Shown: positions 8,845-52,283 of the stretch, in pieces
Position numbering within the stretch: position 1 is the first letter of the stretch
Layout of the letters: each line of letters opens with the position of its first letter
Notes under the pieces: model-generated
What the model was told of the DNA's origin: nothing
Seen by the model: only the letters and a program-made list of their open reading frames with translations
Database searches by the model: none
Made by a program: the position numbers and the translations under genes
Origin: Umezawaea tangerina
GTDB lineage: Bacteria > Actinomycetota > Actinomycetes > Mycobacteriales > Pseudonocardiaceae
Length of the DNA stretch: 64,000 nt
Direction of reading: 5' to 3'
Assembly: GCF_003002815.1 (NCBI RefSeq)
Contig: NZ_PVTF01000022.1
Span: 62,001 to 126,000, forward strand

Positions 8845-9016
8845 AACCGTCCTCCTGAGTTTCCCGGCACTTGCGCCCACACGTGGCAGCCGGTCCACCC
8901 GAACAGCGGTTGCGCTCAGTGATGGCGACTTCGCCTGGTCACAGAACGTACACCGCGTGGTGCCAAGGTCAACTTCGTGCCTGATGCTCGCACTTCGAGC
9001 CCATATGCTTACGCTA

Positions 9017-9038
9017 GGTGCACTGTGATCTGGTGCAC
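9017..9038. promoter_or_regulatory. Paired GGTGCAC sites in divergent promoter
   Basis: GGTGCAC occurs at 9017-9023 and 9032-9038, 15 bases apart. The pair lies just upstream of the methyltransferase start (9075) and within the 230-base gap to the XRE start (8844). The core matches the TGCACGTGCA sites near 7.9 kb. Confidence 0.5.
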
Positions 9039-9074
9039 AAACACCCTCGTTAACAACGCTCTGTGAGGCCTCTG

Positions 9075-9914
9075 ATGCCCGGTAGCACCGCCCCCACGTC
9101 GGACGTTGCCGCACCCGTATACATCGACACGACCAAGGCGAGCATCGCCAGGGTCTACGACGCCTTCCTGCACGGGAAGGACAACTACGAGATCGACCGC
9201 GAGGTCCTCCGCCGCGTCCAGCGCGTCGCGCCCGAGGCCGCCACGCTGGCCTGGGACAACCGGGCGTTCCTGATCAGGGCGAGCCGCTTCATCGCGAGCC
9301 AGACCGGGATCACCCAGTTCCTGGACTGCGGCTCCGGCCTGCCCACCGCGGAGAACACCCACCAGGTCGTCCAACGCCTCCAGCCCGAGGCCAAGGTCGT
9401 CTACGTCGACAACGACCCGGTGGTCCTGGCCCACGGCCGCGCGCTGCTGGAGGAGAACGACCAGACCCACTTCACCGCCGAGAACATCTTCGAGCCGGAG
9501 AAGATCCTGGCCAACGAGGTCGTGCGCAAGCACATCGACTTCACCAAGCCGGTCGCCCTCTTCCAGATGGGCACGCTGCACCACTACAACGGCGAACGCT
9601 CCCCCGCCGACATCATGAAGACCTACGTCGACGCCCTGCCTTCCGGCTCGTACGTCGGCATCTCGCACTTCTACGACCCGGAAACCCCCGAACACAGCGA
9701 ACTGGCCCGCCGCATGGAGGACACCTTCCTCCACAGCCCCATGGGCACCGGCCTCTTCCGCACACGCGACGAGATCCTCGCCATGTTCCCCGGCCTCGAC
9801 CTCATCGAACCCGGCCTCGCCCTCTGCGCCGAATGGTGGCCCGACGGCCCCCAGATCAAGCAGCTCGACCAGGTCTCCCACTGCATCGTCGGCGCCATCG
9901 GCCGCAAACCCTGA
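9075..9914 (+). CDS. DUF574-family SAM-dependent methyltransferase
   Basis: 279-residue protein of the DUF574/Methyltransf_19 family. It begins with the family hallmark 'IDTTKASIARVYDAFLHGKDNYEIDR' region and has a SAM-binding core (FLDCGSGLPTAENTHQVVQ; VVYVDNDPVVLAHGRALL). The substrate is unknown; members frequently lie beside DUF397/XRE modules, as here. ATG 9075 has GAGG 7 bases upstream and was preferred over an in-frame GTG at 9063. Its 3' half has a strong C bias at third positions, and its stop codon directly abuts the tandem tail of repeat copy A. Confidence 0.88.
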   Translation: MPGSTAPTSDVAAPVYIDTTKASIARVYDAFLHGKDNYEIDREVLRRVQRVAPEAATLAWDNRAFLIRASRFIASQTGITQFLDCGSGLPTAENTHQVVQRLQPEAKVVYVDNDPVVLAHGRALLEENDQTHFTAENIFEPEKILANEVVRKHIDFTKPVALFQMGTLHHYNGERSPADIMKTYVDALPSGSYVGISHFYDPETPEHSELARRMEDTFLHSPMGTGLFRTRDEILAMFPGLDLIEPGLALCAEWWPDGPQIKQLDQVSHCIVGAIGRKP

Positions 9915-10160
9915 CGCTGGAACAAAAGCCAAACGTCCCAGCAACGCTGGAAGCAGCACACACGTCACCCAGCAACGCTGGAAGCGAGCGGTGCTCGTCC
10001 GCTCGTGCGGTCGGCTTGACTTGGGGTTTTTGGGCTTAGACTTGCGGCGGCGGGCAGGCTCTACCACCTGCCCTTTTTCGCCCGACGAAGCCCAAAAAAG
10101 GGGCCCCAAGTCAAGCCGACCGCACATGGGTCCGCTGTAGCGACACCCCCGGAGACCGCG
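9912..10160 (-). repeat. Composite palindromic repeat, copy A
   Basis: Copy A of a three-copy element, reading leftward. The core is 10005-10125 with inverted arms 10005-10037 and 10088-10125 (22-bp identical outer part GTGCGGTCGGCTTGACTTGG and on). An internal GGGCAGG/CCTGCCC hairpin is followed by TTTTT on the plus strand. Beyond the core on the left are a small hairpin (9983-10004) and 2.3 tandem ~31-bp units (9954-9984, 9923-9953, 9912-9922). On the right a conserved flank includes GTCCGCTGTAGCGA (10130-10143). It lies between convergent genes and may work as a two-way terminator. There is no transposase nearby. Confidence 0.9.
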
Positions 10161-10244
10161 GCACCCATACCGGGCGACACACCGCGGCTAGAACACCCGG
10201 CGACCCCAACACCGCCGCCAATCGGGTGACACACCCCGAACCCC
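10161..10244. other. C-rich intergenic flank of repeat copy A
   Basis: Short non-coding stretch with degenerate TGTCGC/GGTGT-type repeats on the minus strand resembling the left flank of copy C. I see no gene. Confidence 0.4.
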
Positions 10245-10922
10245 TCAATCCCCCGGATACCTCTGCGCCCACCAAGCAGTCCACCGCGCATCCAGCTCCC
10301 CGAACTCCACTTCCCCCAGCCCGTACGTACTCAACACCGCCATCACCGCCGCATGCGGCTTCGCCTCCGACGGCGGCGTCCGAGCGATGACCAGCAACCC
10401 CTCCCCCCAACTCTCCACGGTCACCCCCACCTGGTTCTCCGACCGGAACCACACCTCCCCCGCCGCGGCCTCCCCCACCAGATCGACCGCGTACCGACCC
10501 TCCACCCCCGACAACCCCAACGCCTCCTCGACCCCCACCGCCCCCGCGTACCCGGCGAAGTGCAGAGTCCGCCGCGCCACCCCCGGCTGCCGTTCGAGGG
10601 CGAACCTGAGCTGCTGGAGGAACGTCGTCCAGCCCTCGGTGATGTCGTCGTAGTAGGCGTCCAGCGCCGGGTCGTCCCCGTGCGGGGCGCGGGTCAGGGT
10701 GACCAGGGTGCCCTCGCCGTCGGGTTCGACGGTGAAGCGGTCGCCGCCCCGCACGCGCAGCGCCCGGCCTTCCTCCAGCACGTCGGCGAAGAAGACCTGG
10801 TCGATCTCGTCGTCGAGACCGTGGTAGTCCCAGCCGTGCCACTGGCGGACCTGCTCCTTGTCCCGCAGGGCCTGCCACACCGCGTCGACCGGTGCGGCGA
10901 CGGTGACCTCGATCCGGGTCAT
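10245..10922 (-). CDS. SRPBCC (AHSA1-like) domain protein
   Basis: 225-residue cytoplasmic protein with the START/Bet v1-like fold of the AHSA1 group. It begins with MTRIEVTVAAPVDAVWQALRDKEQVRQWHGWD and has the helix-grip continuation VEPDGEGTLVTLTRAP and ITEGWTTFLQQLRFALE. A C-terminal extension ends in FGELDARWTAWWAQRYPGD. Such proteins bind hydrophobic ligands or act as stress-related co-factors; no ligand can be named. GGAGG lies just upstream of the ATG at 10922. It is divergent from a TetR gene 100 bases away, the likely regulator. The 3' half is markedly skewed (C-rich on the plus strand) towards repeat copy A. Confidence 0.82.
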   Translation of the reverse strand: MTRIEVTVAAPVDAVWQALRDKEQVRQWHGWDYHGLDDEIDQVFFADVLEEGRALRVRGGDRFTVEPDGEGTLVTLTRAPHGDDPALDAYYDDITEGWTTFLQQLRFALERQPGVARRTLHFAGYAGAVGVEEALGLSGVEGRYAVDLVGEAAAGEVWFRSENQVGVTVESWGEGLLVIARTPPSEAKPHAAVMAVLSTYGLGEVEFGELDARWTAWWAQRYPGD

Positions 10923-14977: not shown

Positions 14978-17265
14978 CCCAGGTCCAGAACCCACCTAAG
15001 GTCGACGTCCCCACCAGGTACGTCGGCAGGTCGATCGACCGCGTGGACGGGGTCGTGAAGACCACCGGTCAGGCGGAGTTCACCGCCGAGGTCCCCTACC
15101 CCGACATCACGCACGCCGCGATGGTGCACTCGACGATCGCCCGCGGGCGGATCACCGCCATCGACACGGCCGCGGCCTCCGCCGTGCGCGGCGTGATCGC
15201 GGTGATCACCCACGAGACCGCCCCGCCGATGAAGCCGCCCGTGCCCGTCAACATGGTGAACATGGAGACGCTCGCGTCCGGCTCGACGGTCAACTACCTC
15301 AACACCGACGAGGTGTTCTGGAACGGCCAGCCGGTCGCCGTCGTGGTGGCGGACACGCCCTACGCCGCGCACGAGGCCGCCGCGCTCGTCCGCGTCACCT
15401 ACGACGAGCTGCCGTCCACACTGGACTTCCACGCCGAGGTCCCCAACTCCGTCCCCCAGCCGAGCAGCATGATCATGCCCGTGGGGGCGGACAAGGGCGA
15501 CGCGGAGGCGGCGCTCGCCGCGGCGGCCGTGTCGGTCGACCTCCGGTTCTCCACGCCGATGCACCACCACAACGCGATCGAGCCGCACGCCACGACGGCG
15601 TCGTGGGACGGCGACCGGCTCACCGTGCACGACGCCGCGCAGGCCATCACCTGGCTGCAGAAGCACCTGGCGCACAAGTTCTCCGTGCCGGTCGAGGGCA
15701 TCCGGGTGATCGCCCCGTTCGTCGGTGGCGGCTTCGGCGGCAAGGGCATGATCTGGCCGGGCACGATCCTCACCGTCATGGCGGCCAGGGTCACCGGCAG
15801 GCCGGTGCGGATGGTGCTCACCAGGGAGGCCGTCTACCGCACGGTCGGCGCGCGCACGCCGTCCGTGCAGCGGGTGGCGCTCGGCGCGGACGCGGACGGG
15901 CACCTGACGTCGCTGATCCACACCAGCGTGACCCAGACGGGCAACGTCGGCGGCATGCCGGAACCCGTGACCTCGCAGTCCAGGTACGTGTACGCGGCGG
16001 ACAACATCCTGCTGAAGCAGGACGTCGTCCGGTTGGACCAGGTCTCCAACACCCCGATGCGCGCCCCCGGCGAGGCGATCGGCACGTACGCGCTGGAGGT
16101 GGCGGTCGACGAGCTCGCCGCCAAGCTGGGCGTCGACCCGATCGAGCTGCGCCTGCGCAACGAGCCGAAGACGGACCCGTTGCACGGCAAGAAGTTCTCC
16201 CAGCGCAGGCTGACCGAGGCCTACGCCCGCGGCGCCGAGCAGTTCGGCTGGGCAGACCGCACACCGGAGCCCGGTTCGATGCGCGACGGCAAGTGGCTGG
16301 TGGGCATGGGGGTCGCCACCGCCTTCTTCCCCCAGCTCCAGCTCGGCGCGAACGTCGTGGTGCGGCTGTCGGTGGACGGCACCGTGGTGGTGCGCAGCGG
16401 TTTCCAGGAGATGGGCATGGGCGGCGCGACCGCGCAGGCGCAGATCACGGCCGACGCGCTCGGCGTGCCCTACGAGTCCGTGCGGGTCGAGTACGGCGAC
16501 ACGACCATGCCGATCGCGCCCATGGCCGGCGGGTCGACGCAGACCGCGAGCGTCGCGGCGAGCCTGCTGACCGCGTGCGAGAAGCTGAAGAAGTCGTTGC
16601 TGGGCCTGGCCAAGAAGTCCGGCTCGTCCCCGCTGACCGGGCGGAAGCTGGAAGACCTCACCGCCCGCGACGGCGGGCTGTTCGCGGGCGGTGTCGGCGA
16701 GACCTACGCAGAGATCCTGGCCAGGGCGGGCAGGCCGTCCATCGACGCCACCGTCGGCTCGGACACCAAGCTGGGGCAGCTGGCCGGGAACCTGAGGTTC
16801 ATGTCCAAGTTCATGCTCGACCAGCGGCGCTGGGTGAAGGCGTCGTCCGGCGCCCAGTTCTGCGAGGTGCGGGTCGACTCGGAGACCGGCGAGGTGCGCG
16901 TGTCCCGCTGGCTCGGCGTGTTCGACGTCGGCACCGTGGTCAACGCGAAGATGGCGCGCAGCCAGCTGCGCGGCGGCATCGTGATGGGCATCGGCATGGC
17001 GCTGTCGGAGGAGACCCTGGTCGACCCGCGCACCGGCCGGATCATGAACCCGAGCCTGTCGGAGTACCACCTGCCGGTGCACGCGGACATCCCGCGCATC
17101 GACGTCGAGTACCTCGACGACCCGGACCCGACCATGCCGCTCGGCCTGCGCGGGATCGGCGAGGTGGGCATCACCGGTGTCGCGGGCGCCATCGCGAACG
17201 CCGTCCACCACGCGACCGGCAGGCGCGTGCGGGACCTGCCGATCACCCTGGACAAGCTGCTCTGA
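14974..17265 (+). CDS. Aldehyde/xanthine-type oxidoreductase, molybdopterin subunit
   Basis: 763-residue catalytic subunit (PaoC/YagR-like), which oxidises an aldehyde or N-heterocycle using molybdenum cofactor. Family blocks are present: the a/b-hammerhead start (GRSIDRVDGVVKTTGQAEFTAE), the MoCo region VGGGFGGKGMIWPGT, MRAPGEAIGTYALE and QEMGMGGATAQAQ, and the C-terminal GLRGIGEVGITG containing the catalytic glutamate. The GTG start overlaps the FAD gene stop. No XdhC/PaoD maturation gene is adjacent. The substrate cannot be set from sequence alone; PaoABC-type aldehyde oxidation is the best match. Confidence 0.92.
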   Translation: MTQVQNPPKVDVPTRYVGRSIDRVDGVVKTTGQAEFTAEVPYPDITHAAMVHSTIARGRITAIDTAAASAVRGVIAVITHETAPPMKPPVPVNMVNMETLASGSTVNYLNTDEVFWNGQPVAVVVADTPYAAHEAAALVRVTYDELPSTLDFHAEVPNSVPQPSSMIMPVGADKGDAEAALAAAAVSVDLRFSTPMHHHNAIEPHATTASWDGDRLTVHDAAQAITWLQKHLAHKFSVPVEGIRVIAPFVGGGFGGKGMIWPGTILTVMAARVTGRPVRMVLTREAVYRTVGARTPSVQRVALGADADGHLTSLIHTSVTQTGNVGGMPEPVTSQSRYVYAADNILLKQDVVRLDQVSNTPMRAPGEAIGTYALEVAVDELAAKLGVDPIELRLRNEPKTDPLHGKKFSQRRLTEAYARGAEQFGWADRTPEPGSMRDGKWLVGMGVATAFFPQLQLGANVVVRLSVDGTVVVRSGFQEMGMGGATAQAQITADALGVPYESVRVEYGDTTMPIAPMAGGSTQTASVAASLLTACEKLKKSLLGLAKKSGSSPLTGRKLEDLTARDGGLFAGGVGETYAEILARAGRPSIDATVGSDTKLGQLAGNLRFMSKFMLDQRRWVKASSGAQFCEVRVDSETGEVRVSRWLGVFDVGTVVNAKMARSQLRGGIVMGIGMALSEETLVDPRTGRIMNPSLSEYHLPVHADIPRIDVEYLDDPDPTMPLGLRGIGEVGITGVAGAIANAVHHATGRRVRDLPITLDKLL

Positions 17266-17335
17266 CCGTCCGCTCCGGACCGGGCAGCACCCGGACGCCC
17301 GCCCAGCCGCCGGGGAGGACGTCCACGCGGGCGGA

Positions 17336-17359
17336 GGGGCGGGCGGTACGGCCCGCCCC
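17336..17359. terminator. Bidirectional terminator hairpin
   Basis: GGGGCGGGC (17336-17344) pairs perfectly with 17351-17359, six-base loop. It lies between convergent stops at 17265 and 17361. Confidence 0.8.
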
Positions 17360-17360
17360 T

Positions 17361-18176
17361 TCACCCGCGCAGCAGGTACCTCGTGCACGCCGCCGTGAAC
17401 TCCTCCGGTGCCTCGAGCCACGGCACGTGCCCGGTGTCCAGCACCACCCGCGTCGCGTTCGGCAGCGCGCGTTCCAGCGAGTCGACCGCCGTGCGCGGCC
17501 GGACGTCGTGGGCGCCGTCGACGATCAGCGTCGGCACCTCCAGCCCTCGGCAGGCCTCGACCAGCTCGTCCTCCCGCCAGGTGCGCCGGTCCTCGGCGTC
17601 GATCGCGGCGTTGCACTCGTGGTTGACGCCGAACCACGGCGTGGCCATCCGCTCGGCGAACGCGGTCGCGGTGGTCGGGTCGACGAACTCCACCGACCAC
17701 TGGAGGACCGCGAGCTCGCGCTCCTCGGCCTCGTCGCGCGCCCGGCCGCGCAGCTCCTCCCACCGGGCGAACCCGTCCCCGAGGCGGGCTTCGAAGTTCG
17801 CGGAGAACGCCTCGCGCCAGTCCCAGCCGAGCCCGACGCCGGACACGTAGCCGAGCGCGGTGACCCGGTCCGGGTGGTCGAGCGCGTAGCGCAGGGCGAG
17901 CTGCGCGCCCCAGGAGTGGCCGAGCAGCACCATCCGGTCGAGGCCGAAGTGCTCGCGGACCGCGTCGAGGTCGGCCGCCGTTCGGGCCGTCGAGTACGGG
18001 CCGCGCCGCTGCGACCGCCCGCTCCCCCGCTGGTCCCAGCGGACCAGCCGGGCGGGCAGGTCGAGGTCGCCGAACATGTCCCACAGGCCGGGGCCGCCGT
18101 GGCACAGCACCACCGGCTCACCGGCACCCGTCGCGCTCGCCCACAGCTCGCACCCGTCGTCCGTCCGCACGCCCAT
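17361..18176 (-). CDS. Alpha/beta hydrolase, proline iminopeptidase-like
   Basis: 271-residue cytoplasmic hydrolase of the S33/proline iminopeptidase-like group. It has the oxyanion block VVLCHGGPGLWDMF, the strand LVRWDQRGSGRSQRRGPYS and the nucleophile elbow GHSWGAQLALRYA. The acid is in VDGAHDVR, and the histidine is near DTGHVPWLE. The ATG at 18176 was chosen because homology begins right there. Divergent from the MFS gene. Substrate unknown: aminopeptidase, esterase or lactonase are all possible. Confidence 0.85.
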   Translation of the reverse strand: MGVRTDDGCELWASATGAGEPVVLCHGGPGLWDMFGDLDLPARLVRWDQRGSGRSQRRGPYSTARTAADLDAVREHFGLDRMVLLGHSWGAQLALRYALDHPDRVTALGYVSGVGLGWDWREAFSANFEARLGDGFARWEELRGRARDEAEERELAVLQWSVEFVDPTTATAFAERMATPWFGVNHECNAAIDAEDRRTWREDELVEACRGLEVPTLIVDGAHDVRPRTAVDSLERALPNATRVVLDTGHVPWLEAPEEFTAACTRYLLRG

Positions 18177-19779: not shown

Positions 19780-20595
19780 ATGACCGACACCGCACCCGCC
19801 TCCGACCTGACCGGCTGGAAGCACCGGTCGTTCACCGCCGCGGGGATCACCCACGACTGCTTCGAGAAGGGCGAGGGCCCCGGCGTCGTGGTGATGCCGG
19901 AGATCCCCGGCATCCACCCCGAGGTCCTCGGCTTCGCCGACCACCTGGTCGACCAGGGGTTCACCGTGGTGCTGGTGTCGCTCTACGGCATCCCCGGCAA
20001 GGCCGTCTCGGCGGGCTACTCGCTGTCCTCGATCGGCAAGGCGTGCGTGTCCGCGGAGTTCCGGGCGTTCGCCACGAACGCCCACCGCCCCGTCACCGAC
20101 TACCTGCGCGCCGTCTCCCGCGACCTCGCCGCCCGCACGCCGGGCAAGGGCGTCGGCGTCATCGGCATGTGCTTCTCCGGCGGGTTCGCGCTCGCGGCCG
20201 CCGTCGACGACGTCGTGCTGGCCCCGGTGCTGAGCCAGCCGTCGGTGCCGTTCCCGATCGGCGAGACCCGCCGCCGCGACCTGGGCCTGGCACCGGACGA
20301 GGCGGCGCGGATCGTCCAGCGCACCAAGGACGAGGGGCTGTGCGTGCTGGGGATGCGGTTCAGCGAGGACTCCCTGGTGCCGCCCGCCCGGTTCGCCCAC
20401 CTCCGCGAACTGCTCGGCGACGCGTTCGAGGTCATCGAGCTGGACTCCTCGCCCGGCAACGCGGGCGGGTTCACGAAGAACGCCCACTCGGTGGTCACCG
20501 GCGAGGTGCGGGACGTGCCCGGCCACCCGGCGCTGGGAGCGCGCACGCGGGTGGTGGAGTTCTTCCGCGAACGGCTGACCGCGGCGGCCGAGTAG
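19780..20595 (+). CDS. Dienelactone hydrolase family protein
   Basis: 271-residue alpha/beta hydrolase of the dienelactone hydrolase family. The cysteine nucleophile elbow is GMCFSGGFALAAA, preceded by the early block PGVVVMPEIPGIHPEV. The acid/His part is in the last third (KNAHSVV). The ATG at 19780 has AGGAG upstream. Family members hydrolyse lactones in aromatic degradation, but many stand-alone copies have other esterase roles. Same strand as, and close behind, the MFS exporter. Confidence 0.88.
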   Translation: MTDTAPASDLTGWKHRSFTAAGITHDCFEKGEGPGVVVMPEIPGIHPEVLGFADHLVDQGFTVVLVSLYGIPGKAVSAGYSLSSIGKACVSAEFRAFATNAHRPVTDYLRAVSRDLAARTPGKGVGVIGMCFSGGFALAAAVDDVVLAPVLSQPSVPFPIGETRRRDLGLAPDEAARIVQRTKDEGLCVLGMRFSEDSLVPPARFAHLRELLGDAFEVIELDSSPGNAGGFTKNAHSVVTGEVRDVPGHPALGARTRVVEFFRERLTAAAE

Positions 20596-20711
20596 GCCCG
20601 TGGACCAGCCGGTCCGCGGTTTCGTCGCGGACGACGGCGAACCTCAAGGCGGTCCCGGACGTCCTTCTGGACGTCCGGGTTCGCAGACGGGGTCGGGGTG
20701 GTGGGCGTGGG

Positions 20712-21293
20712 ATGGCGGAGCTGAGGTTCGCGTTGCTGGGTCCGGTGAGGGCGTGGCGCGGGGGTGAGGAACTGCCGCTGGGCTCCCCCCGGCAGCGGGT
20801 GGCGCTGGTGCGCCTGCTGCTGGGCGAAGGGCGGGCGGTGTCGGTCGAGGAGGTCATCGACGCGGTGTGGGGCGACGAGCCGCCGCGCGGGGCTCGTGGG
20901 GCCGTGCGCACGTACGTGCACCGGTTGCGGCGGACGCTCGGGGACGGCGACGACGAGGTGATCGCGTCGGCCGGGGGCGGGTACGCGATGGCGGTGGAAA
21001 CCGGGGCGGTGGACTGGGGGCGGTTCCGGATGAGGGTGGAAGCGGCCGCGAAGGCGCGGGAGAGAGGGGCGATGGGGGCGGCGGCGGATCTGCTGCGGTC
21101 GGCGGAGGGGTTGTGGAGGGGGGAGGCCTTGGAGGGGCTGGAGGGGGCGTTCGCGGAGGGGGTTCGGGGGCGGTTGGGGAGGGCTCGGGAGGAGGCTTTG
21201 GGGATCGGGGTGGGTGCGTCGACAGCGGTTGTCGGATTCGCCGAGCTTGGCACCGGGTATCGCTACAGCGGACTCCGGGTGCGGTCGGCTTGA
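20712..21293 (+). pseudogene. Truncated SARP/AfsR-type regulator, ending in repeat copy B
   Basis: The first ~160 residues match the SARP family: a winged-helix OmpR-type DNA-binding domain (RFALLGPVRAWRGGEELPLGSPRQRVALVRLLL ... RGARGAVRTYVHRLRRTLGD in pieces) followed by the first helices of the BTAD domain (WRGEALEGLEGAF). A complete BTAD would need about 90 more residues; instead the frame runs into unrelated sequence (STAVVGFAELGTGYRYSGL). It stops at 21293, inside the left arm of repeat copy B. The gene was therefore probably cut by insertion or rearrangement at the repeat. A short functional DNA-binding protein remains possible. Confidence 0.75.
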
Positions 21294-21533
21294 CTTGGGG
21301 CCCCTTTTTTGGGCTTCGTCGGGCGAAAAAGGGCAGGTGGTAGAGCCTGCCCGCCGACCAATTTTAAGCCCAAAAACCCCAAGTCAAGCCGACCGCACGA
21401 GCGGACGAGCACCGCTCGCTTCCAGCGTCGTTGGGCGTTTGTCTTTTGTTCCGGCGTTGTTGGGTGTTTGTCTTTCGTTCCGGCGTTCTTGAGTCTGTGT
21501 GTTGCTGTTGCTGTTGCTGTTGCTGTTGTTGGG
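21260..21533 (+). repeat. Composite palindromic repeat, copy B
   Basis: Rightward copy. Conserved left flank TCGCTACAGCGGAC (21260-21273). Core 21279-21398 with arms 21279-21316 and 21366-21398. Inner GGGCAGG/CCTGCCC hairpin. Then GAGCGG/CCGCTC mini-hairpin (21398-21416) and three ~30-bp tail units (21419-21448, 21449-21477, 21478-21500). The tail ends in a GTTGCT hexanucleotide run (about 21501-21524). The core centre differs from A and C (CCGACCAATTTT in place of CCGCCGCAAGTC). Confidence 0.9.
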
Positions 21534-21550
21534 CAGTCTGATGTGGAGGG

Positions 21551-22561
21551 TTGGGTCGGGTCTTGCGGGTGGGTGAGGCGCGGGCGGCTGCGGTGGACTG
21601 GGTGGTGGGGGTGGGGAGGGGGGAGGTCGGGTATTCGGGGGCGTACTTCGCCGGGTCGACTGTGGGGATGGCGGTCGGGGATGAGTTGCCGGTGGGGTCC
21701 GATGTGGATGTGGTGGTGGTGCTGGATGTCGAGGTGGCGCCTGCCAAGGCTGGGAAGTTCGTTCATCGTGGGGTGCTGGTCGAGGTGACCTACGTGCCGT
21801 GGCACGAGGTGCGGGGGGCGTTGGGGTCCTATCACCTCGCGGGTGGGTTGCGGACGGACACGGTGATCGACGATCCGGTCGGGAGGTTGCGGCCGTTGCA
21901 GGCGGTGGTGGCCGAGCACTTCTCCGACGAGGTGTGGGTGCGGCGGCGGTGCGAAGAGGCGCGGGCGCGGGTGGAGACGCGGTTGGCGGTGGTGGACGGG
22001 ACCGCGCCGTGGCACCAGCAGGTGATGGGGTGGGTGTTCCCCACCGGGGTGGCGGCGCACGTGGTGCTGGTGGCCGCGCGGCGGAACCCGACGGTGCGGT
22101 TGCGGTACCTGGCGGCGAGGCCGGTGACGCCCGCTCCGGTCTACCGGGAGCTGCTGGAGCAGCTCGGGTGTGCGGAGTGGACGGTGGCGCGGGCCCGGCA
22201 CCACCTGGAGCGGTTGGCGGTGACGTTCGACCTGGCGGTGCGGGCGGCCAGGACGCCGTTGTCCTTCAGCACCGACATCACGGCGGCGGCGCGGCCGGTC
22301 GCGATCGACGGGAGTCGTGAGCTGATCGACGCGGGAGACCACCGGGAGGCGGTGTTCTGGATGGTGGTGACCTACGCCCGCTGCCACACCGTGCTCGCGC
22401 TCGACGCGCCCGAGGTGGACCGGGAGTTGCGGCCCGCGTTCGACGAGCTGATGGCGGACCTCGGGATCACGACGACGGCGGACCTGCGCGCTCGGGCGGA
22501 GCGGACGCTGGGGTACCTGCCGGAGCTGTGGGCGGTGGCGGAGGAGCTGATGGCGCGCTAG
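21551..22561 (+). CDS. Nucleotidyltransferase-domain protein
   Basis: About 330 residues. It has the polymerase-beta-type nucleotidyltransferase signature: AGSTVG followed by PVGSDVDVVVVLD, which supplies the glycine-serine and the paired metal-binding aspartates. A third acidic strand comes in LVEVTYV. The C-terminal part is helical and resembles substrate-binding domains of aminoglycoside-type transferases. The start is uncertain: TTG 21551, TTG 21563 or GTG 21569, none with a good ribosome site, and all lie just after the tail of repeat copy B. The 5' half uses G at third positions very strongly. Substrate unknown. Confidence 0.75.
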   Translation: MGRVLRVGEARAAAVDWVVGVGRGEVGYSGAYFAGSTVGMAVGDELPVGSDVDVVVVLDVEVAPAKAGKFVHRGVLVEVTYVPWHEVRGALGSYHLAGGLRTDTVIDDPVGRLRPLQAVVAEHFSDEVWVRRRCEEARARVETRLAVVDGTAPWHQQVMGWVFPTGVAAHVVLVAARRNPTVRLRYLAARPVTPAPVYRELLEQLGCAEWTVARARHHLERLAVTFDLAVRAARTPLSFSTDITAAARPVAIDGSRELIDAGDHREAVFWMVVTYARCHTVLALDAPEVDRELRPAFDELMADLGITTTADLRARAERTLGYLPELWAVAEELMAR

Positions 22562-22568
22562 CGGCGCC

Positions 22569-23012
22569 TCACTGGTCGGCCGCGACCTCGATCTTCTCCA
22601 GGAGTTCCCTCAACTGCGCCTGCTGGTCCTCGGACAGCGGTGCGAACAGGCTGGCCGCCGCCTCGGCGCGGGCCTCGCGGAACAGCTCGCGCGTGCGCGT
22701 CCCCTGCTCGGTCAGCTCCAGGAGCACCGAGCGGCGGTTGGCCGGGTCGACGCGGCGGCGGACCAGGTCGGCCTCCTCCAGCGCGTCGACCAGCGGGGTG
22801 ACCGCGCGCGGCACGACGTGCAGGCGGTCGGCGAGGTCGACCATCCGGGGTGGGGTGCCGCCGTAGCGGGCGATGACCTCCAGCGCGCGGGACTGGGCGA
22901 GGGTGAAGCCGAGCGGGGCGAGCCGTTCGCCGTAGGCGCGCCTGATGCGTCGGGCCTGGCGGAGGAAGAGCTCACCCAGCCCACCTGCGGTTTCGTCCGT
23001 GTCCACGAACAC
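22569..23012 (-). CDS. MarR-family transcriptional regulator
   Basis: 147-residue MarR regulator with the winged-helix core (LAQSRALEVIARYGGTPPRMVDLADRLHVVPRAVTPLVDALE in pieces) and the wing RRRVDPANRRSVLLELT. The GTG at 23012 is the start. It is divergent from the ABC exporter gene 48 bases away, and the gap contains an inverted repeat, so it very likely represses the exporter and itself. Confidence 0.9.
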   Translation of the reverse strand: MFVDTDETAGGLGELFLRQARRIRRAYGERLAPLGFTLAQSRALEVIARYGGTPPRMVDLADRLHVVPRAVTPLVDALEEADLVRRRVDPANRRSVLLELTEQGTRTRELFREARAEAAASLFAPLSEDQQAQLRELLEKIEVAADQ

Positions 23013-23036
23013 AGAATAACAGAGGTGCGTTCATTG

Positions 23037-23049
23037 TTACCCTAGGTAA
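23037..23049. promoter_or_regulatory. Putative MarR operator
   Basis: Inverted repeat TTACC-CTA-GGTAA lies in the 48-base gap between the MarR and ABC transporter starts. A second pair of arms TAACA...TGTTA flanks the promoter slightly upstream. Confidence 0.55.
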
Positions 23050-23060
23050 GAGTCAAACCC

Positions 23061-24842
23061 ATGGAGGTGTCCTTGCCGACCACCGCACAAGACCACCCGG
23101 TGAGCGTCCGCCGGATCCTGGGGCTGTTCCGGCCCTACCGGCTGCGGCTGTCCGCGGTCGCCCTGTTCGTCCTGCTGTCGTCACTGGTGTCGGTGGCGTC
23201 GCCCTTCCTGCTGCGCGAGATCCTCGACGTGGCCATCCCGCAGGGTCGGGTCGGTCTGCTGACCGCGCTCGCCGCGGGCCTCATCGCGGTCGCCGTGGCG
23301 ACCAGCGTCTTCAACGTGATCCAGACCTACGTGTCGACGGCCGTGGGCCAGGACGTCATGCACGACCTGCGCACCGGCGTCTACGACCACCTGCAGCGCA
23401 TGTCGCTGGCGTTCTTCACCAAGACCCGCACCGGCGAGGTGCAGTCGCGCATCGCCAACGACATCGGCGGCATGCAGTCCACCGTCACCTCCACCGCGAC
23501 CTCGCTGGTGTCGAACGTGACCACGGTGGTGGCGACCGTCGTCGCCATGACCGCGCTCGACTGGCGCCTGACCATCGTGTCGCTCGCGCTGCTCCCGCTG
23601 TTCGTGTGGATCAGCCGCCGGGTGGGCACCGAGCGCAAGAAGATCACCGGTGAGCGCCAGCGGCAGCTCGCCACCATGTCCACGAACGTGCAGGAGTCCC
23701 TGTCGGTCAGCGGGATCCTGCTCGGCCACACGATGGGCCGCACGGACTCGCTGACCACGTCGTTCGCGCAGGAGTCGGCGAAGCTGACCAAGCTGGAGGT
23801 GCGCGCGAGCATGGCGGGCCGCTGGCGGATGTCCACCGTGGGCATCGTCATGGCCGCCATGCCCGCCCTGATCTACTGGGCCGCGGGCGCGAGCGGCGCG
23901 CTGGGCGTGCCGATCGCCTCGCTGGGCACGCTGGTCGCGTTCGTGTCGTTGCAGCAGACCCTGTTCCGCCCGGCCGTGTCGCTGATCCAGACCGGAGTGG
24001 AGCTGCAGAGCTCGCTGGCGCTGTTCCAGCGGATCTTCGAGTACCTCGACCTGCCGGTGGACGTCGAACCGCCCGCGACACCGTTGCCGCTCAAGGACAT
24101 CCGGGGCGAGGTGCGGTTCGAGGACGTGTCCTTCGCCTACTCCCCCGAGCACCGGACGCTGACCGGCGTCGACATCATCGTCCCACCGGGCACCAGCCTC
24201 GCCGTGGTCGGCGAGACCGGCTCGGGCAAGACGACCCTGAGCTACCTGGTCCCGCGGCTCTACGACGTGACAGCGGGCCGGGTCACGATCGACGGCGTCG
24301 ACGTGCGCGACCTGGACTTCGCCACGCTGGCCGAAGCCGTGGGCGTCGTGTCCCAGGAGACCTACCTGTTCCACGCCTCCATCGCCGACAACCTGCGGTT
24401 CGCCAAACCCGACGCGACTGACGAGGAACTGGTGGCGGCAGCGGAAGCGGCGCAGATCCACCAGCACATCAGCGAACTGCCCGAGGGGTACGACACGCTG
24501 GTCGGCGAACGCGGCTACCGGTTCTCTGGCGGGGAGAAGCAGCGGCTGGCGATCGCCAGGACGATCCTGCGCAACCCGCCGATCCTGGTGCTGGACGAAG
24601 CGACCAGCGCACTGGACAACCAGACGGAACTGGCGGTGCAGGAAGCGATCGACGCGCTGTCGGAAGGGCGGACGACGATCACGATCGCGCACCGGCTGTC
24701 GACGATCCGGGACGCGGACCAGATCGTGGTGCTGGACCGGGGGGAGGTCGTGGAGAGGGGGAACCACGGGGAGCTGGTGGCTTTGAACGGGGAGTACGCG
24801 GCGTTGGTTCGGAGGGATGGGAGTTTGGAGCCGGTGGCTTGA
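23061..24842 (+). CDS. ABC exporter with fused membrane and ATPase domains
   Basis: 593-residue half-transporter (type IV exporter, MsbA/LmrA-like). Six transmembrane helices lie in residues about 20-310. The ATPase domain has Walker A GETGSGKT (near 384-391), a variant signature FSGGEKQRLAIAR (near 488), Walker B ILVLDEATSALD and the H-loop TIAHRLST. It probably works as a homodimer exporting lipid or drug. ATG 23061 gives the longest form, but TTG 23073 has GGAGGTG 5 bases upstream and may be the true start. The last ~150 bases show strong G bias towards repeat copy C. Confidence 0.92.
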   Translation: MEVSLPTTAQDHPVSVRRILGLFRPYRLRLSAVALFVLLSSLVSVASPFLLREILDVAIPQGRVGLLTALAAGLIAVAVATSVFNVIQTYVSTAVGQDVMHDLRTGVYDHLQRMSLAFFTKTRTGEVQSRIANDIGGMQSTVTSTATSLVSNVTTVVATVVAMTALDWRLTIVSLALLPLFVWISRRVGTERKKITGERQRQLATMSTNVQESLSVSGILLGHTMGRTDSLTTSFAQESAKLTKLEVRASMAGRWRMSTVGIVMAAMPALIYWAAGASGALGVPIASLGTLVAFVSLQQTLFRPAVSLIQTGVELQSSLALFQRIFEYLDLPVDVEPPATPLPLKDIRGEVRFEDVSFAYSPEHRTLTGVDIIVPPGTSLAVVGETGSGKTTLSYLVPRLYDVTAGRVTIDGVDVRDLDFATLAEAVGVVSQETYLFHASIADNLRFAKPDATDEELVAAAEAAQIHQHISELPEGYDTLVGERGYRFSGGEKQRLAIARTILRNPPILVLDEATSALDNQTELAVQEAIDALSEGRTTITIAHRLSTIRDADQIVVLDRGEVVERGNHGELVALNGEYAALVRRDGSLEPVA

Positions 24843-24903
24843 GGGGGGTGTTTGGGGGTTTTGTGGGGCTTGCTCGGTGTGGGAGGCGTCGTGGGGGTCG
24901 CCC

Positions 24904-25242
24904 AGTGTCGGTACAGCTGTCTCCGGGGGTGTCGCTACAGCGGACCCAGGTGCGGTCGGCTTGACTTGGGGCCCCTTTTTTGGGCTTCGTCGGGCGAAAA
25001 AGGGCAGGTGGTAGAGCCTGCCCGCCGCCGCAAGTCTAAGCCCAAAAACCCCAAGTCAAGCCGACCGCACTAGCGGACGAGCACCGCTCGCTTCCAGCTT
25101 CGTTGGGCGCTTGCTGGTTGCTTCCAGCTGGGTTGGGTGACTTGTGTTTCGTTCCAGCTGGGTTGGGTGGCTTGTGTTTCGGTTCCAGCTGGGTTGAGAC
25201 GTTGGCTTTGCTTTCAGCGTTGTGGGCTGGCTTGTCTGTTGG
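24904..25242 (+). repeat. Composite palindromic repeat, copy C
   Basis: Rightward and the longest copy. Left flank with two related units (AGTGTCGGTACAGCTG at 24904, TGTCGCTACAGCGG at 24931). Core 24950-25070 with arms 24950-24987 and 25038-25070. A mini-hairpin follows, then five tandem tail units (25091-25120, 25121-25151, 25152-25182, 25183-25210, 25211-25242) sharing TTCCAGC and TTGGG. The rest of the 450-base gap between the ABC and SDR genes (24843-24903, 25243-25293) is G-rich and shows nothing else. Confidence 0.9.
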
Positions 25243-25293
25243 TTCGGCGAGTCTGTGTGCGTGGGGTGGGGGTGTGGTCGAAGATCGGTGGCC

Positions 25294-26055
25294 ATGAGCA
25301 CCGTCCTGATCACTGGTTCGGCTGATGGTCTTGGGTTGATGGCGGCGGAGCTGTTGCTCGGCGAAGGGCATGAGGTGGTGTTGCATGCGCGGAGCGAGGG
25401 GCGGGCGGAGCAGGCGTTGGCGGCGGTGCCGGGGGCGGCCGGGGTGGTGGTCGGGGATTTGGCGAGTGTGGCCGAGGTCGTGGGGGTGGCGGAGCAGGCG
25501 AACGCGATCGGGCGGTTCGACGCGGTGATCCACAACGCCGGGGTGTACCTGGTGCCGGAGCGGGTGGAGACGGTGGACGGGCTGTCGGTGGTGTTCGCGG
25601 TGAACGTGGTGGCGCCGTACCTGTTGACGGCGTTGGTGCGGCGGCCGGCAAGTCTGGTGTACCTGAGCTCGGGGATGCACCTGGGTGGTAGTCCGGACCT
25701 GGGTGACCCGCAGTGGAAGCGCAGGCCGTGGCGGGCGTCGCAGGCGTACTCGGACTCGAAGCTGTTCGACGTGGCGTTGGCGTTCGCGGTGGCGCGGCGG
25801 TGGGCGGACGTGCGGTCCAACGCGGTGGACCCCGGTTGGGTCGCGACGAGGATGGGTGGGCCCGGTGCGCCGGACGACCTGGCGCAGGGGCCGGTGACGC
25901 AGGTGCGGTTGGCCGTGGACGACCTGGGCAGCGGTGGCTACTACTACCACCAGCGGATGAGCGACACGCACCCCGCGGTGTCCGACATCGAGGTCCAGGA
26001 AGGGCTGCTGGCGGTGTGCCGGGAGATCACGGGTGTGGAGATGGCGACGACGTGA
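25294..26055 (+). CDS. Short-chain dehydrogenase/reductase
   Basis: 253-residue SDR with the N-terminal cofactor motif VLITGSADGLG, the NAG strand (VIHNAGVY) and the catalytic YSDSK. After the glycine motif, HARSEGRAE suggests NADP(H) preference. ATG 25294 is the start. The first half is very rich in G-ending codons, matching the skew around repeat copy C. Its 3' end overlaps by 29 bases the convergent GntR gene. Substrate unknown. Confidence 0.87.
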   Translation: MSTVLITGSADGLGLMAAELLLGEGHEVVLHARSEGRAEQALAAVPGAAGVVVGDLASVAEVVGVAEQANAIGRFDAVIHNAGVYLVPERVETVDGLSVVFAVNVVAPYLLTALVRRPASLVYLSSGMHLGGSPDLGDPQWKRRPWRASQAYSDSKLFDVALAFAVARRWADVRSNAVDPGWVATRMGGPGAPDDLAQGPVTQVRLAVDDLGSGGYYYHQRMSDTHPAVSDIEVQEGLLAVCREITGVEMATT

Positions 26056-26683
26056 GCCGGGCCTCGGCACGGGAGAGGTGGTCGGACATCGCGCGGCAGG
26101 CGCGGTCCGCGTCGCCCGCGGCGATGACGGCCAGCAGTGCGCGGTGCTCCACGGCGAGGTCGTGGGGGCCGGGGTACGCGGAGTGCAGCTGGGCCAGGCA
26201 GAGCTGCATCTCCTCCTGCACGGCGGGGTAGATCCGGCTCAGGCGCGCGCTGCCCGCGCAGTCGACCAGGGCGACGTGGAACGCGGTGTGCGCCTCCACC
26301 CGTGCCGCCCAGCCCGCGGTCGCGGGCAACGCCTCCATCGCCACCAGGAACTCCTCGGCCCGGTCGAGCGGCAGCCCCTTCTCCACGATCTCGCGCACCG
26401 CCCGCACCTCCAGCGGAGTGCGGACGAAGAAGAGGTCGCGCACGTCGTCCTCGGTCAGCACCGGAACGGTCAGCGAACGACCGCCGCCCGCGTGCACCAG
26501 GTGGCGGGCCACGAGGACCTGCAACGCCGACCGCACGGTCGGCCGGGCGACCCCGAACGTCGTGGCCAGGCCGTTCTCGGTGAGCACCTCACCGGGAGCC
26601 AGCTCGCCGCTCAGGATCCGCCTGCGCACCTCGGCCACCAGGGCGTCCCTCGTGGTGGTCGTCTGCAGCACCGGACTCACCAC
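26027..26683 (-). CDS. GntR-family regulator, FadR/FCD subfamily
   Basis: 218-residue regulator. The winged helix (LVAEVRRRILSGELAPGEVL, then TTFGVARPTVRSALQVLVAR) is followed by an all-helical FCD ligand-binding domain with metal-type histidines (HTAFHVALVDCAGSARL, VEHRALLAVIAAGD). It is divergent from the EamA exporter with a small palindrome between them and so probably controls it. Its last 29 bases overlap the end of the convergent SDR gene. Confidence 0.9.
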   Translation of the reverse strand: MVSPVLQTTTTRDALVAEVRRRILSGELAPGEVLTENGLATTFGVARPTVRSALQVLVARHLVHAGGGRSLTVPVLTEDDVRDLFFVRTPLEVRAVREIVEKGLPLDRAEEFLVAMEALPATAGWAARVEAHTAFHVALVDCAGSARLSRIYPAVQEEMQLCLAQLHSAYPGPHDLAVEHRALLAVIAAGDADRACRAMSDHLSRAEARLTSSPSPHP

Positions 26684-30569: not shown

Positions 30570-31928
30570 ATGACCTCACGCCACACCGACATCCGTCCGG
30601 CGATACGACCCGCCGGTGAACCGTCCGCGTTCCTGGCCGCCTACCCCGGCTACGAGCTGACCCGCGGGCTGGACCGGTTGCGCCGCACGGAGTTCGCCTA
30701 CCTCGACGAGCAGAACCACCTGTACCTGGACTTCGCCGGGTCGGGTCTCGCCGCCACGGCGCAGCACCGCGCGCACCAGCACCGCGTGTCCGGTGTGGTC
30801 CCCGGTGGTCCGAGCACGACCGCCGCCGCCGTCGACCACGCGCGCCGCGCCGTGCTGCGGCACCTGAACGCCTCCCCGCAGGAGTACTCCGTCGTCTTCA
30901 CCGCCAACGCGACCGCCGCCGCCAGGCTGGTCGGCGAGCGGTACCCGTTCTCGCGCCACGGCAGGCTCGTGCTCACCTCCGACAACCACCAGTCGGTCAC
31001 CGCCCTGCGCGGTTTCGCCAAGGCGGCGCACGCCGAGACCACCGTGATCTCCACCCAGCGCCCGGATCTGCGCATCTCGACCAGCACCGTCATCGCCGCC
31101 CTCGGCCGCAAGCGCCCCGAGCGCAAACGCGGCCTCTTCGCCTTCCCGGCCCAGAGCGGGTTCTCCGGTGTCCAGCACGCGCTGGGCTGGATCGACATCG
31201 CCCGCGACCGCGGCTACGACGTCCTGCTCGACGCGGCCGCCTACCTCCCCACCAACACCCTCGACCTCAGCCTCGTGCGCCCCGACTTCGTCACCGTCAG
31301 CTGGTACAAGGTCTTCGGCTACCCCACCGGCGTCGGCTGCCTCGTCATCCGCAACGACGCCCTCTCCCGCCTCACCAAGGCCCCGCTCGAGGAAGGCGTC
31401 GACCTCCACTCCGTCCCCGACGTCGAAGTCGGCCTGTCCTTGCTGGCCGACAACGGCGTCGAGCTCATCTCCCGCCGCGTCCGCTACCTCACCGGCTGGT
31501 TCCTCGACCGCCTCACCACCCTCCGCCACGGCAACGGCACCCCCATGACCCGCGTCTACGGCCCCACCACCACCCTCGCCAGGGGCGCCACCGTCAGCTT
31601 CAACCTCCTCGACCCCGCAGGCCACGTCATCGACCTCAAGATCGTCGCCGACGAAGCCGCCTCCGCGGGCATCTCCCTCCACACCGGCCCTTCCGGCACC
31701 CCCAACGCCGGCACCAACGCCTCCGAACTCTGCCCCCGCTCCCTCCGCGCCCTCCTCAAGCACGGCACCAAACACGTCGGCGAACCCATCGACACAGCCG
31801 GCCTCCCCACCGACGGCACAATCCGCGTCTCCTTCGGCGCCCCTTCAGCAATCCGCGACGTAGAACGCTTCATCGCATTCCTCGAACGCCACTACGAAGA
31901 CCGCTTCACCGGCGACCTCACAACCTGA
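30570..31928 (+). CDS. Class V aminotransferase-fold PLP enzyme, MOCOS-like
   Basis: 452-residue PLP-dependent enzyme. The cofactor lysine is in SWYKVFGYPTGVGCLVI, closely like the N-terminal domain of molybdenum cofactor sulfurases, and other class V blocks are present (LYLDFAGSGLAATA, VVFTANATAAARLVG, DVLLDAAAYLPTNTLDLS). At the position where MOCOS proteins carry the persulfide cysteine (around TGCFCNPGA) this protein reads LHTGPSGTPNAG, with the nearest cysteine several residues later. It may therefore not be a sulfurase. ATG 30570 has GGAG at 30561-30564. C-ending codons dominate its second half. Confidence 0.8.
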   Translation: MTSRHTDIRPAIRPAGEPSAFLAAYPGYELTRGLDRLRRTEFAYLDEQNHLYLDFAGSGLAATAQHRAHQHRVSGVVPGGPSTTAAAVDHARRAVLRHLNASPQEYSVVFTANATAAARLVGERYPFSRHGRLVLTSDNHQSVTALRGFAKAAHAETTVISTQRPDLRISTSTVIAALGRKRPERKRGLFAFPAQSGFSGVQHALGWIDIARDRGYDVLLDAAAYLPTNTLDLSLVRPDFVTVSWYKVFGYPTGVGCLVIRNDALSRLTKAPLEEGVDLHSVPDVEVGLSLLADNGVELISRRVRYLTGWFLDRLTTLRHGNGTPMTRVYGPTTTLARGATVSFNLLDPAGHVIDLKIVADEAASAGISLHTGPSGTPNAGTNASELCPRSLRALLKHGTKHVGEPIDTAGLPTDGTIRVSFGAPSAIRDVERFIAFLERHYEDRFTGDLTT

Positions 31929-31996
31929 AGAACAAGAACAAAACCCAAGCCACAGCACCAGCAAACCCACCAACCCCACCAAGCCCACCCCGTTGG

Positions 31997-32169
31997 GCGA
32001 AGCCCGCCAGCGCGCATCCGGCGCGAAGCGCCTGGGGCCTTGTCCGCCGCGCAGCAAGGATGCCCTGTCCGACGCGAAGCGCGGATGCCCCGCCCAACGG
32101 CGAAGCCGAGGATGCTTGGTCAGGCGAAGCCTGATGCCTGAGTCGAGCGCAGCTCGATGCTGGCGAAGC
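31997..32169. repeat. Periodic array of eight GCGNAGC mini-hairpins
   Basis: GCGAAGC or GCGCAGC starts at 31997, 32023, 32049, 32074, 32100, 32124, 32147 and 32163, a spacing of 23-26 bases except for the last. Flanking arms differ yet stay complementary in most units (GG/CC, CGG/CCG-type, CAG/CTG, TCGA/TCGA, TG/CA). Between several units lies (G)GATGC. GNA-loop hairpins of this sequence are exceptionally stable as DNA. The array lies in a 443-base gap between convergent genes. Confidence 0.88.
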
Positions 32170-32206
32170 CAGACTTCCCCTCTGCCCCCGATCCACAGCG
32201 CCCTCC

Positions 32207-32261
32207 TGCCCGATCTTCGTTGTCAAGACAGCTTTATCGTCTTGACAACGAAGATCGGGCA
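32207..32261. repeat. 23-bp perfect stem-loop
   Basis: Bases 32207-32229 and 32239-32261 are perfectly complementary with a 9-base loop (AGCTTTATC). The stem is less GC-rich than its surroundings. It follows the mini-hairpin array and lies before the stop of the leftward response regulator. It could be a bidirectional terminator or a small-RNA precursor. The remaining bases to 32371 contain only minor GC-rich dyads. Confidence 0.88.
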
Positions 32262-32371
32262 TTGAGACAATCGCGCGCCGGGGGCCGGGCTTCACCAGTT
32301 GGTGGGACGGCTGATAGCCGCGCTTCGCACGGTGAGAGGGCCGGAAACCGCGCCCCACCACAGGGAACCCC

Positions 32372-52154: not shown

Positions 52155-52241
52155 GGGCAGCCTCCACGAGTGGAGGCGCCCTTGCTCGACCGGAGTGCGG
52201 GTCGAGCGTGGCGGACACGTGGTCCGTTGCAGCGCCTCTCG
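52155..52241 (-). ncRNA. SAH-riboswitch-like leader of metH
   Basis: On the minus strand the leader reads GAGGCGCUGCAACGG, then a stem GCUCGAC/GUCGAGC (52201-52207 with 52184-52190), then AAGGGCGCCUC. The pair GAGGCGC/GCGCCUC (52232-52238 with 52173-52179) closes the motif. This matches my memory of the S-adenosylhomocysteine riboswitch consensus. The final CCUC also belongs to CCUCCAC (52170-52176), which can instead pair with GUGGAGG (52161-52167) holding the metH ribosome site. Folding the aptamer would therefore free translation: an ON switch, as known for this class. Confidence 0.75.
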
Positions 52242-52283
52242 ACCCGTGACCGAGATTACCGGAAGCGGCGGTAGATTGCGGCC

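Follow-up and report, generated by a model that had tools for sequence, protein, structure and literature searches.

Background

Palindromic repeats are common in bacteria. The VCR/attC sites of integrons are imperfect palindromes of approximately 125 bp that are homogenised per species and sit at gene 3' ends, the complementary-strand origin of M13 is a folded single strand primed by RNA polymerase, and the Frpo/ssi single-stranded DNA promoters are reportedly the subject of Masai and Arai 1997. According to the sections of PMC11541004 drawn on here, Frpo/ssi of conjugative plasmids is folded single-stranded DNA that mimics a duplex with a -35 and a -10 and is used by RNA polymerase; sso of rolling-circle plasmids is, in the corresponding sections of PMC5703833, a large one-strand fold that is RNA-polymerase-primed and orientation-dependent, with ssoA being ≈160 nt long. 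As far as the excerpts used here describe them, REPs are palindromes of 20-40 bp with a tag at one end (PMC3733652), REPs and REPINs are high-copy, intergenic, palindromic and non-coding (PMC3116915, PMC2817692, PMC3733652), and MITE-like sequences are short, intergenic inverted-repeat sequences that look non-autonomous (PMC2229807, PMC2759123).

We report on a palindromic element of Umezawaea tangerina, three copies of which lie in a stretch of 64,000 bp (the window; contig NZ_PVTF01000022.1, positions 62,001 to 126,000) to which all coordinates refer. The element resembles Frpo/ssi, as characterised in the source above, in that its -35 and -10 likewise lie within secondary structure, its activity being only predicted. 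It differs in being chromosomal, actinobacterial and present in more than 100 copies, where Frpo/ssi occupies the leading region of plasmids, and in pointing into the apex of its hairpin and carrying a terminator-like hairpin. With sso and the M13 origin it shares, in general description, a large folded structure of one strand, but it is scattered in the chromosome. The element would work like Frpo/ssi and sso, yet we do not class it as a member of either because its copies are scattered in the chromosome and its activity is only predicted.

Like the REPs and REPINs of those reports the element is high-copy, intergenic, palindromic and non-coding, but it has a promoter-like fold and a surrounding mutation field, and no Y1 transposase was found in its genome. 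Like the MITE-like sequences as there described, it is short, intergenic, gained and lost, and bounded by terminal inverted repeats (its 22-nt arms), but neither a target-site duplication nor a parent transposase was found and the arms covary across genera. The imperfect palindrome of ≈125 bp, the homogenisation per species and the location at gene 3' ends are shared with VCR/attC sites; the element is, however, dispersed and forms no array.

Architecture of the three window copies

The plus strand of the element is taken as the strand whose first arm carries an extra CCCCT, and its parts are ordered as 22-nt outer arms, a left extrahelical CCCCT, a second stem of ≈11 pairs, an asymmetric internal loop and an apical hairpin. 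The first-pass annotation had described three copies with one architecture, i.e. 22-bp identical outer arms, an inner GGGCAGG/CCTGCCC hairpin, a conserved flank, a mini-hairpin and a tail of ≈30-bp units, and we recovered each of these parts in every copy. The folded cores, scored with the covariance model R1, are located at 10003..10127 (copy 1, 125 bp, minus strand, 128.6 bits), 21277..21400 (copy 2, 124 bp, plus strand, 137 bits) and 24948..25072 (copy 3, 125 bp, plus strand, 131 bits), copy 1 being oriented opposite to copies 2 and 3. The outer arms (10005-10026/10104-10125, 21279-21300/21377-21398 and 24950-24971/25049-25070, respectively) are perfect over 22 nt with 76-77 nt between them. 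The extrahelical CCCCT, which in copy 3 follows GGGG in the left arm (24972..24976, plus strand), is near-constant within the genus and has variant forms in other genera. The conserved left flank, TCGCTACAGCGGAC, is present beside each copy (10130..10143 on the minus strand for copy 1 and 21260..21273 on the plus strand for copy 2), that of copy 3 (24905..24945, plus strand) including two degenerate left-array units; this flank likewise has the form of a degenerate array, whose units measure 24 bp at one locus. The GAGC..GCTC mini-hairpin and the right-hand tail units of ≈30 bp cover 9937..9996 in copy 1 (minus strand, the mini-hairpin at 9986-9996), 21407..21477 in copy 2 and 25079..25225 in copy 3 (both plus strand).

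In an Rfam 15 search of the window the element had no match above the gathering score, and the sole match was a SAH riboswitch at 52167-52246 (minus strand, 37.8 bits). An open frame to the left of copy 2 (20712-21293) ends within the left arm of the element with an overlap of 14 bp; no element copy was found in the part of the congener G002 that matches this frame, so that the element may have truncated or lengthened the frame. A segment with the ABC transporter gene, located between copies 2 and 3 (22579-24836), is inverted relative to G002 (L089:4272-6528), one end of the inverted segment being ≈110 bp from copy 3.

Copy number, genomic placement and distribution

A strict half-site pattern gave 56 forward and 55 reverse matches in the U. 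tangerina genome (10.68 Mb, 34 contigs) and 0 + 0 matches genome-wide for its reversed control, while the left 47-nt half occurred 86 times, 84 of these without mismatch (control 0). Further U. tangerina copies comprise 5 indel variants, 12 members of a third subfamily and 5 more, and with the sets compared by hand the 125-bp core is present at at least 108 places. The expectation in the first-pass annotation of a dispersed intergenic family with many copies in the genome is borne out by this number, and the case it had named against itself, three copies only or a local segmental duplication, does not apply. Copies are spread over many U. tangerina contigs, and in G002 over its one contig of 11.8 Mb.

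Context and skew were determined for 59 of the at least 108 U. tangerina copies, which were fetched with 4-kb flanks, and the gene calls came from a home-made codon-usage caller. Not one of these 59 copies is inside a called gene, and the same holds for the 43 copies of G002, the 28 rows of the congener G001 (2 of which repeat the same places, L177 and L062) and 56 copies from other genera. The 3' end of the right-hand neighbour faces the element in 47/59 U. tangerina copies; 29/59 are between co-directional genes, 25/59, the commonest single setting, between convergent genes and 5/59, the rarest, between divergent genes, and 21/43 G002 copies are between convergent genes. With the copies between called genes on many contigs, a transferred or rolling-circle element is not indicated as their carrier.

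Both congeners searched (G001 and G002) carry the element in versions of their own. When the search was widened to related Pseudonocardiaceae, as had been proposed, a first covariance model built from 24 sequences of the genus detected it in 33/297 family genomes (10/46 genera). A second model, built from other genera, detected it in 12/397 genomes from the order, a single one of which, a 78%-complete assembly with 45.8 bits, is from outside the family, and across the phylum in 1/396 genomes, that of the window itself. Since scoring was confined to 8-12 candidates per genome, under strict filters, the numbers given for genomes beyond the genus are minima. A neighbouring gene has named relatives in Solihabitans, Actinosynnema, Lentzea and Amycolatopsis, among others. 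When GuaB1 was used to locate conserved sites in named genomes, no strong element was found in the 38 loci scanned out of 80, and there was one weak match (24.9 bits) in L246.

Clustering of neighbours covered the genes within 1.5-4 kb of fetched copies. DUF222 genes adjoin the element at 6/6 loci of genus g34 (L325-L330), on the element's plus strand and with starts 107-147 bp to the right, and are beside it at 3/15 loci of g8 (L203, L207 and L209), one of them having an HNH domain. A DUF222-HNH nuclease was rejected as a required partner, since U. tangerina, G001, G151, G200 and G227 carry the element without a DUF222 match.

Covariation of the predicted fold

The predicted DNA fold of copy 3 has an energy of -52.4 kcal/mol (z = -11.1 against 200 dinucleotide shuffles). 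Across genera 28/32 pairs of the arms have changed on both sides, 96.0% of 1106 cells are paired (shuffled mean 67.4%; slid 30-47%), double changes are present in 283 cells and the covariation score is 0.698 versus 0.07-0.12 when slid, all in an alignment that was fitted to the structure and hence favours covariation. The alignment of the genus (MAFFT), unfitted to the structure, has double changes at 12/32 pairs. Judged by these substitutions, the fold is under selection across genera. One-sided G-T/G-U steps amount to 10 cells in the two main helices, and RNA helices usually show more of them. Because such steps are nearly absent from the covarying arms, it is probably as DNA that the paired form acts.

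A promoter-like pair and a terminator-like apex

The minus strand of 134/169 distinct copies, which are kin by descent and hence not 169 independent events, carries TTKAYN and TANNNT separated by 14-18 nt (nearly always 15-16); the pair is present on the plus strand of 0/169 copies and in 231/3240 shuffled spacers. It points into the hairpin and was found in 8/10 genera. In the window, TTGACT is followed after 15 nt by TAGACT in copy 1 (10016-10021 and 10037-10042, on the plus strand of the window and so opposite to the element's plus strand), by TAAAAT in copy 2 (21387-21382 and 21366-21361, minus strand) and by TAGACT in copy 3 (25059-25054 and 25038-25033, minus strand). Downstream and on the same strand, all three copies have a terminator-like apical hairpin followed by TTTTT (10052..10078, plus strand; 21326..21352 with the stem at 21352-21331, minus strand; 24997..25023 with the stem at 25023-25002, minus strand). 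The strict motif is absent from 35/169 copies (20/42 in G002, 6/15 in g8, all 5 in g17 and the one of g3), and among the misses listed many differ by one base, e.g. TGCAAT in G002.

In the predicted DNA fold of 128 copies the -35 hexamer and the spacer are paired, the third -35 base being unpaired where the -35 reads TTTAC, and the first base of the -10, T-12, is mostly paired. Positions A-11 to T-7 are mostly open (mean probability ≈0.65-1.0) in U. tangerina, G002, G001, g30, g45 and g8, less cleanly so in g34, g27 and g28, and not in g22. As modelled, a paired -35 and spacer together with an open -10 is the arrangement of a pre-melted promoter, and the -35 and -10 are located in a stem formed from one strand, as in Frpo/ssi and sso, with the strict motif missing from the 35/169 copies given above. 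A standard promoter scan returned no promoter in the window copies because it requires a spacer of 16-18 nt and that of the element is 15-16 nt, the usual spacer being 17 nt. The failed scan counts against an ordinary duplex promoter, and the short spacer with a bulge opposite may fit a special geometry.

A strand-specific mutation field

The flanks of 59/59 fetched U. tangerina copies have a positive skew, i.e. the plus strand of the element is G-rich; the mean GC skew over 500 bp to the left and 1000 bp to the right is 0.25, which was matched in 0/10000 orientation flips, and T exceeds A on the same strand. In the window the fields cover 9000..10750 for copy 1 (minus strand, seen as G + T excess on the element's plus strand), 20500..22250 for copy 2 (plus strand, GC skew up to +0.55) and 24750..26250 for copy 3 (plus strand, GC skew up to +0.47). 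The field extends ≈0.5-0.75 kb to the left and 1.5-2 kb to the right of U. tangerina copies and somewhat less far to the right in G002, the right-hand field being the longer one in both. Third codon positions show the field most strongly, and its sign does not depend on the strand of the gene: to the right of the element the third-position skew is +0.66 in minus-strand genes versus 0.10 far away, and +0.41 (250-500 bp) in plus-strand genes versus -0.03 far away, and the third codon positions of G002 follow the same pattern.

In G001 the field is mainly to the left, with no field beyond 250 bp on the right side; two copies are present in inverted order at five loci, so right-side skew would be expected to cancel there. 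In other genera the field is mostly to the left and within ≈250 bp, with little or no field seen in g30 (none beyond 100-250 bp) and around the single copies of g28 and g3. The five copies of genus g17 (L331-L335) have a GC skew of 0.16-0.25 across the whole 2.4 kb to their left.

At convergent junctions of genes the mean absolute skew is 0.088 where the element is absent (n=32) and 0.299 where it is present (n=27; p = 5e-9). A replication-strand effect was rejected as the cause, since the skew follows the orientation of the element as in the flip counts above, and so was coding-strand bias, since third positions of plus- and minus-strand genes agree in sign; an origin in break resection appears disfavoured by the identical sign of the skew on both sides. 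That any intergenic palindrome has this effect was likewise rejected on the basis of another repeat family, for which the mean GC skew per bin is ≤0.10 in size over 12 loci. This second high-copy repeat is present in the window at 31985-32345 (310-360 bp), with a palindrome at 32209-32259 whose arms read CCCGATCTTCGTTGTCAAGAC and with small GCGAAGC palindromes in an array; of 230 candidates in the U. tangerina genome 40 places were scored, and 8/12 loci are between convergent genes. The window also has a C- and A-rich stretch (31250-32250) that contains no element of the hairpin family, with a GC skew of -0.43 and a TA skew of -0.32 in 31500-32000; it is perhaps the trace of a lost copy.

Filled and empty sites

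Among the U. tangerina sites queried in G002, 19/21 could be placed; four are filled in both genomes and some are rearranged. Sites at which G002 has no trace of the element were taken as clean empty sites, and five of these entered the final count; they are the empty sites in relatives for which the first-pass annotation had advised looking. At one reciprocal site it is G002 that has the element and the window (17265-17361) that has none. Within 0-250 bp of the five clean sites, C of the empty site is T or G in the filled one at 121/303 positions, while G is A or C at 8/360 (odds ratio 29, p = 6e-38). The corresponding numbers for changed C and changed G are 198/730 versus 36/773 at 250-500 bp, 321/1692 versus 146/1857 at 500-1000 bp and 338/3215 versus 227/3319 at 1-2 kb, and beyond 2 kb the bias is gone (260/3680 versus 262/3604). 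C>A is not raised at filled sites, and the reciprocal site has the mirror-image bias. L152 and L146, where G002 keeps remnants of the element, were left out of the five-site count; their inclusion leaves the bias unchanged in kind, and taken alone they have little bias.

From the near-neutral composition of the empty sequences, and not from an outgroup, we infer that the change follows gain of the element. The neighbour preference of the changed cytosines is weak (5' rates 0.19-0.30; 3' A 0.34 versus 0.20-0.23, with codon position uncontrolled), and a motif-specific deaminase is therefore not indicated. As a sequence pattern, loss of C from one strand around the copies suggests that single-stranded DNA has been exposed locally and repeatedly.

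These comparisons support the gain and loss of copies at sites, remnants of lost copies being present at 2 sites. The 6 junctions shown (2 with remnants), whose flanks have diverged, revealed no visible target-site duplication. Gene-scale insertions or losses are located directly beside several copies. At L107:3838-6023 a U. tangerina element and two ABC-transporter genes are present between a PhoH-like gene and GuaB1 (names assigned by eye), and G002 is without them.

Homogenisation within genomes

Over the core and 25-bp flanks the mean identity is 0.931 among U. tangerina copies, 0.779 among G002 copies and 0.755 between the two. At 15 shared sites the U. tangerina and G002 copies are 0.64-0.83 identical and the partner at the same site is the best G002 match in 1/15, while the best U. 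tangerina paralogue is 0.88-0.99 identical and the flanking DNA ≈80-96% identical. The shared-site copies follow the version of their own genome, and homogenisation therefore acts without new insertion sites; it would proceed via gene conversion or copying. Each genome has several subfamilies, and each of the two main outer-stem types is found with the four commonest inner types, which suggests exchange of sequence among copies.

Discussion

Computation shows a dispersed element with a covarying fold, a promoter-like motif whose -10 is mostly open, and an apex resembling a terminator; its copies are gained, lost and homogenised, and C is lost around them. Of these features the first-pass annotation had included neither the promoter-like motif nor the skew of the flanks by strand, nor had it recognised the polarity. 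As the best explanation, to which we give roughly an even chance, each copy would be a DNA hairpin with a pre-opened sigma70-type promoter, that is, a folded-DNA promoter or priming site dispersed on the chromosome. The mechanism that we infer would have RNA polymerase bind the folded minus strand, either in a cruciform or as single-stranded DNA, and make a short RNA from it through the apex. RNA-primed DNA synthesis would then proceed to the right with the minus strand as template and the plus strand being displaced, and the exposed plus strand would lose cytosines, probably through deamination and subsequent error-prone bypass. Such a priming model specifies the exposed strand and the stronger side, and its exposed strand and longer side agree with the footprint in U. 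tangerina and G002, an agreement that was noticed post hoc; displacement to the right does not directly predict the field on the left.

A reading as a non-autonomous mobile element of the MITE or REPIN type, with the palindrome as its ends and the skew as a by-product of nicking, excision or repair by a hypothetical mover, is rather unlikely in our judgement. Of this proposal, which was among those of the first-pass annotation, the dispersal and the gain and loss stand, with 5 filled sites whose G002 counterparts are clean, 1 reciprocal site, remnants at 2 sites, several subfamilies per genome and an intergenic location biased to gene 3' ends. The mover did not come to light: a profile search for the Y1 transposase (PF01797), the parent RAYT that was to be looked for, gave 0 matches in the U. 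tangerina genome and control matches in 5/14 named genomes, and at the 6 junctions a target-site duplication was not visible. REPIN/RAYT was set aside given the missing Y1 transposase. By eye, no short tagged palindrome was noticed in the arms, which form one 22-nt perfect outer stem with no within-arm palindrome at a minimum length of 12. Moreover, the ends of a mobile element need neither covariation nor a promoter-like motif or an open -10, and the 15 shared-site copies follow their own genome's version, having been homogenised without new insertion sites. A priming site and a mobile element may nevertheless hold together, because a replicating single-stranded intermediate would need such a site.

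We regard as distinctly unlikely a small-RNA gene on ordinary duplex DNA, producing a terminated RNA of ≈35 nt with a CACCU-type loop while the left arm insulates or stops read-through. The promoter-like pair followed on one strand by a terminator-like hairpin with a T-run would suit such a gene, as would an apical loop that is alike within the genus, but a duplex promoter would not need the covariation seen between the left arm and the promoter region, G-U steps are nearly absent and the spacing is 15. The skew would also be unexplained, as the exposed strand would be the template and not the displaced strand.

A transcription terminator or insulator between convergent genes, in line with the structured terminator suggested earlier, is very unlikely. 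The element does contain a terminator-like hairpin with a T-run, and the convergent setting accounts for 25/59 U. tangerina and 21/43 G002 copies; against it, 5/59 U. tangerina copies are between divergent and 29/59 between co-directional genes, and the conserved polarity, the promoter-like motif with its covarying arms and the mutation field are unexplained, while the other repeat family, with 8/12 loci between convergent genes, is without comparable skew. An attC-like recombination site that ends gene cassettes is hardly credible, for although the imperfect palindrome of ≈125 bp with extrahelical bases, the location at gene 3' ends in one main polarity, the homogenisation per species and the gene-scale indels beside copies are reminiscent of it, the copies are dispersed and not arrayed, and no attC-type end boxes were noticed by eye.

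Among the matches listed from the full-text literature searched, which leaves most subscription papers outside, none describes a chromosomal repeat whose fold presents an open promoter, or a repeat surrounded by strand-specific cytosine loss. If the folded-DNA promoter reading is extended, the dispersed hairpins could represent a new class of chromosomal element, i.e. local single-strand priming sites at which one strand is repeatedly displaced over 1-2 kb, giving programmed strand-specific cytosine hypermutation and a zone of gene flux at ≈100 loci; this we put forward tentatively and consider somewhat doubtful. The footprint makes predictions of strand, side and distance, so that the question is directly testable. 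If the reading is true, folded-DNA promoters would occur outside plasmids and phages as well, and the U. tangerina chromosome would have about a hundred sites that are recurrently single-stranded; the flanks of the element would then hold a natural, readable record of single-strand exposure, and the element would be a local source of mutation beside ordinary metabolic genes.
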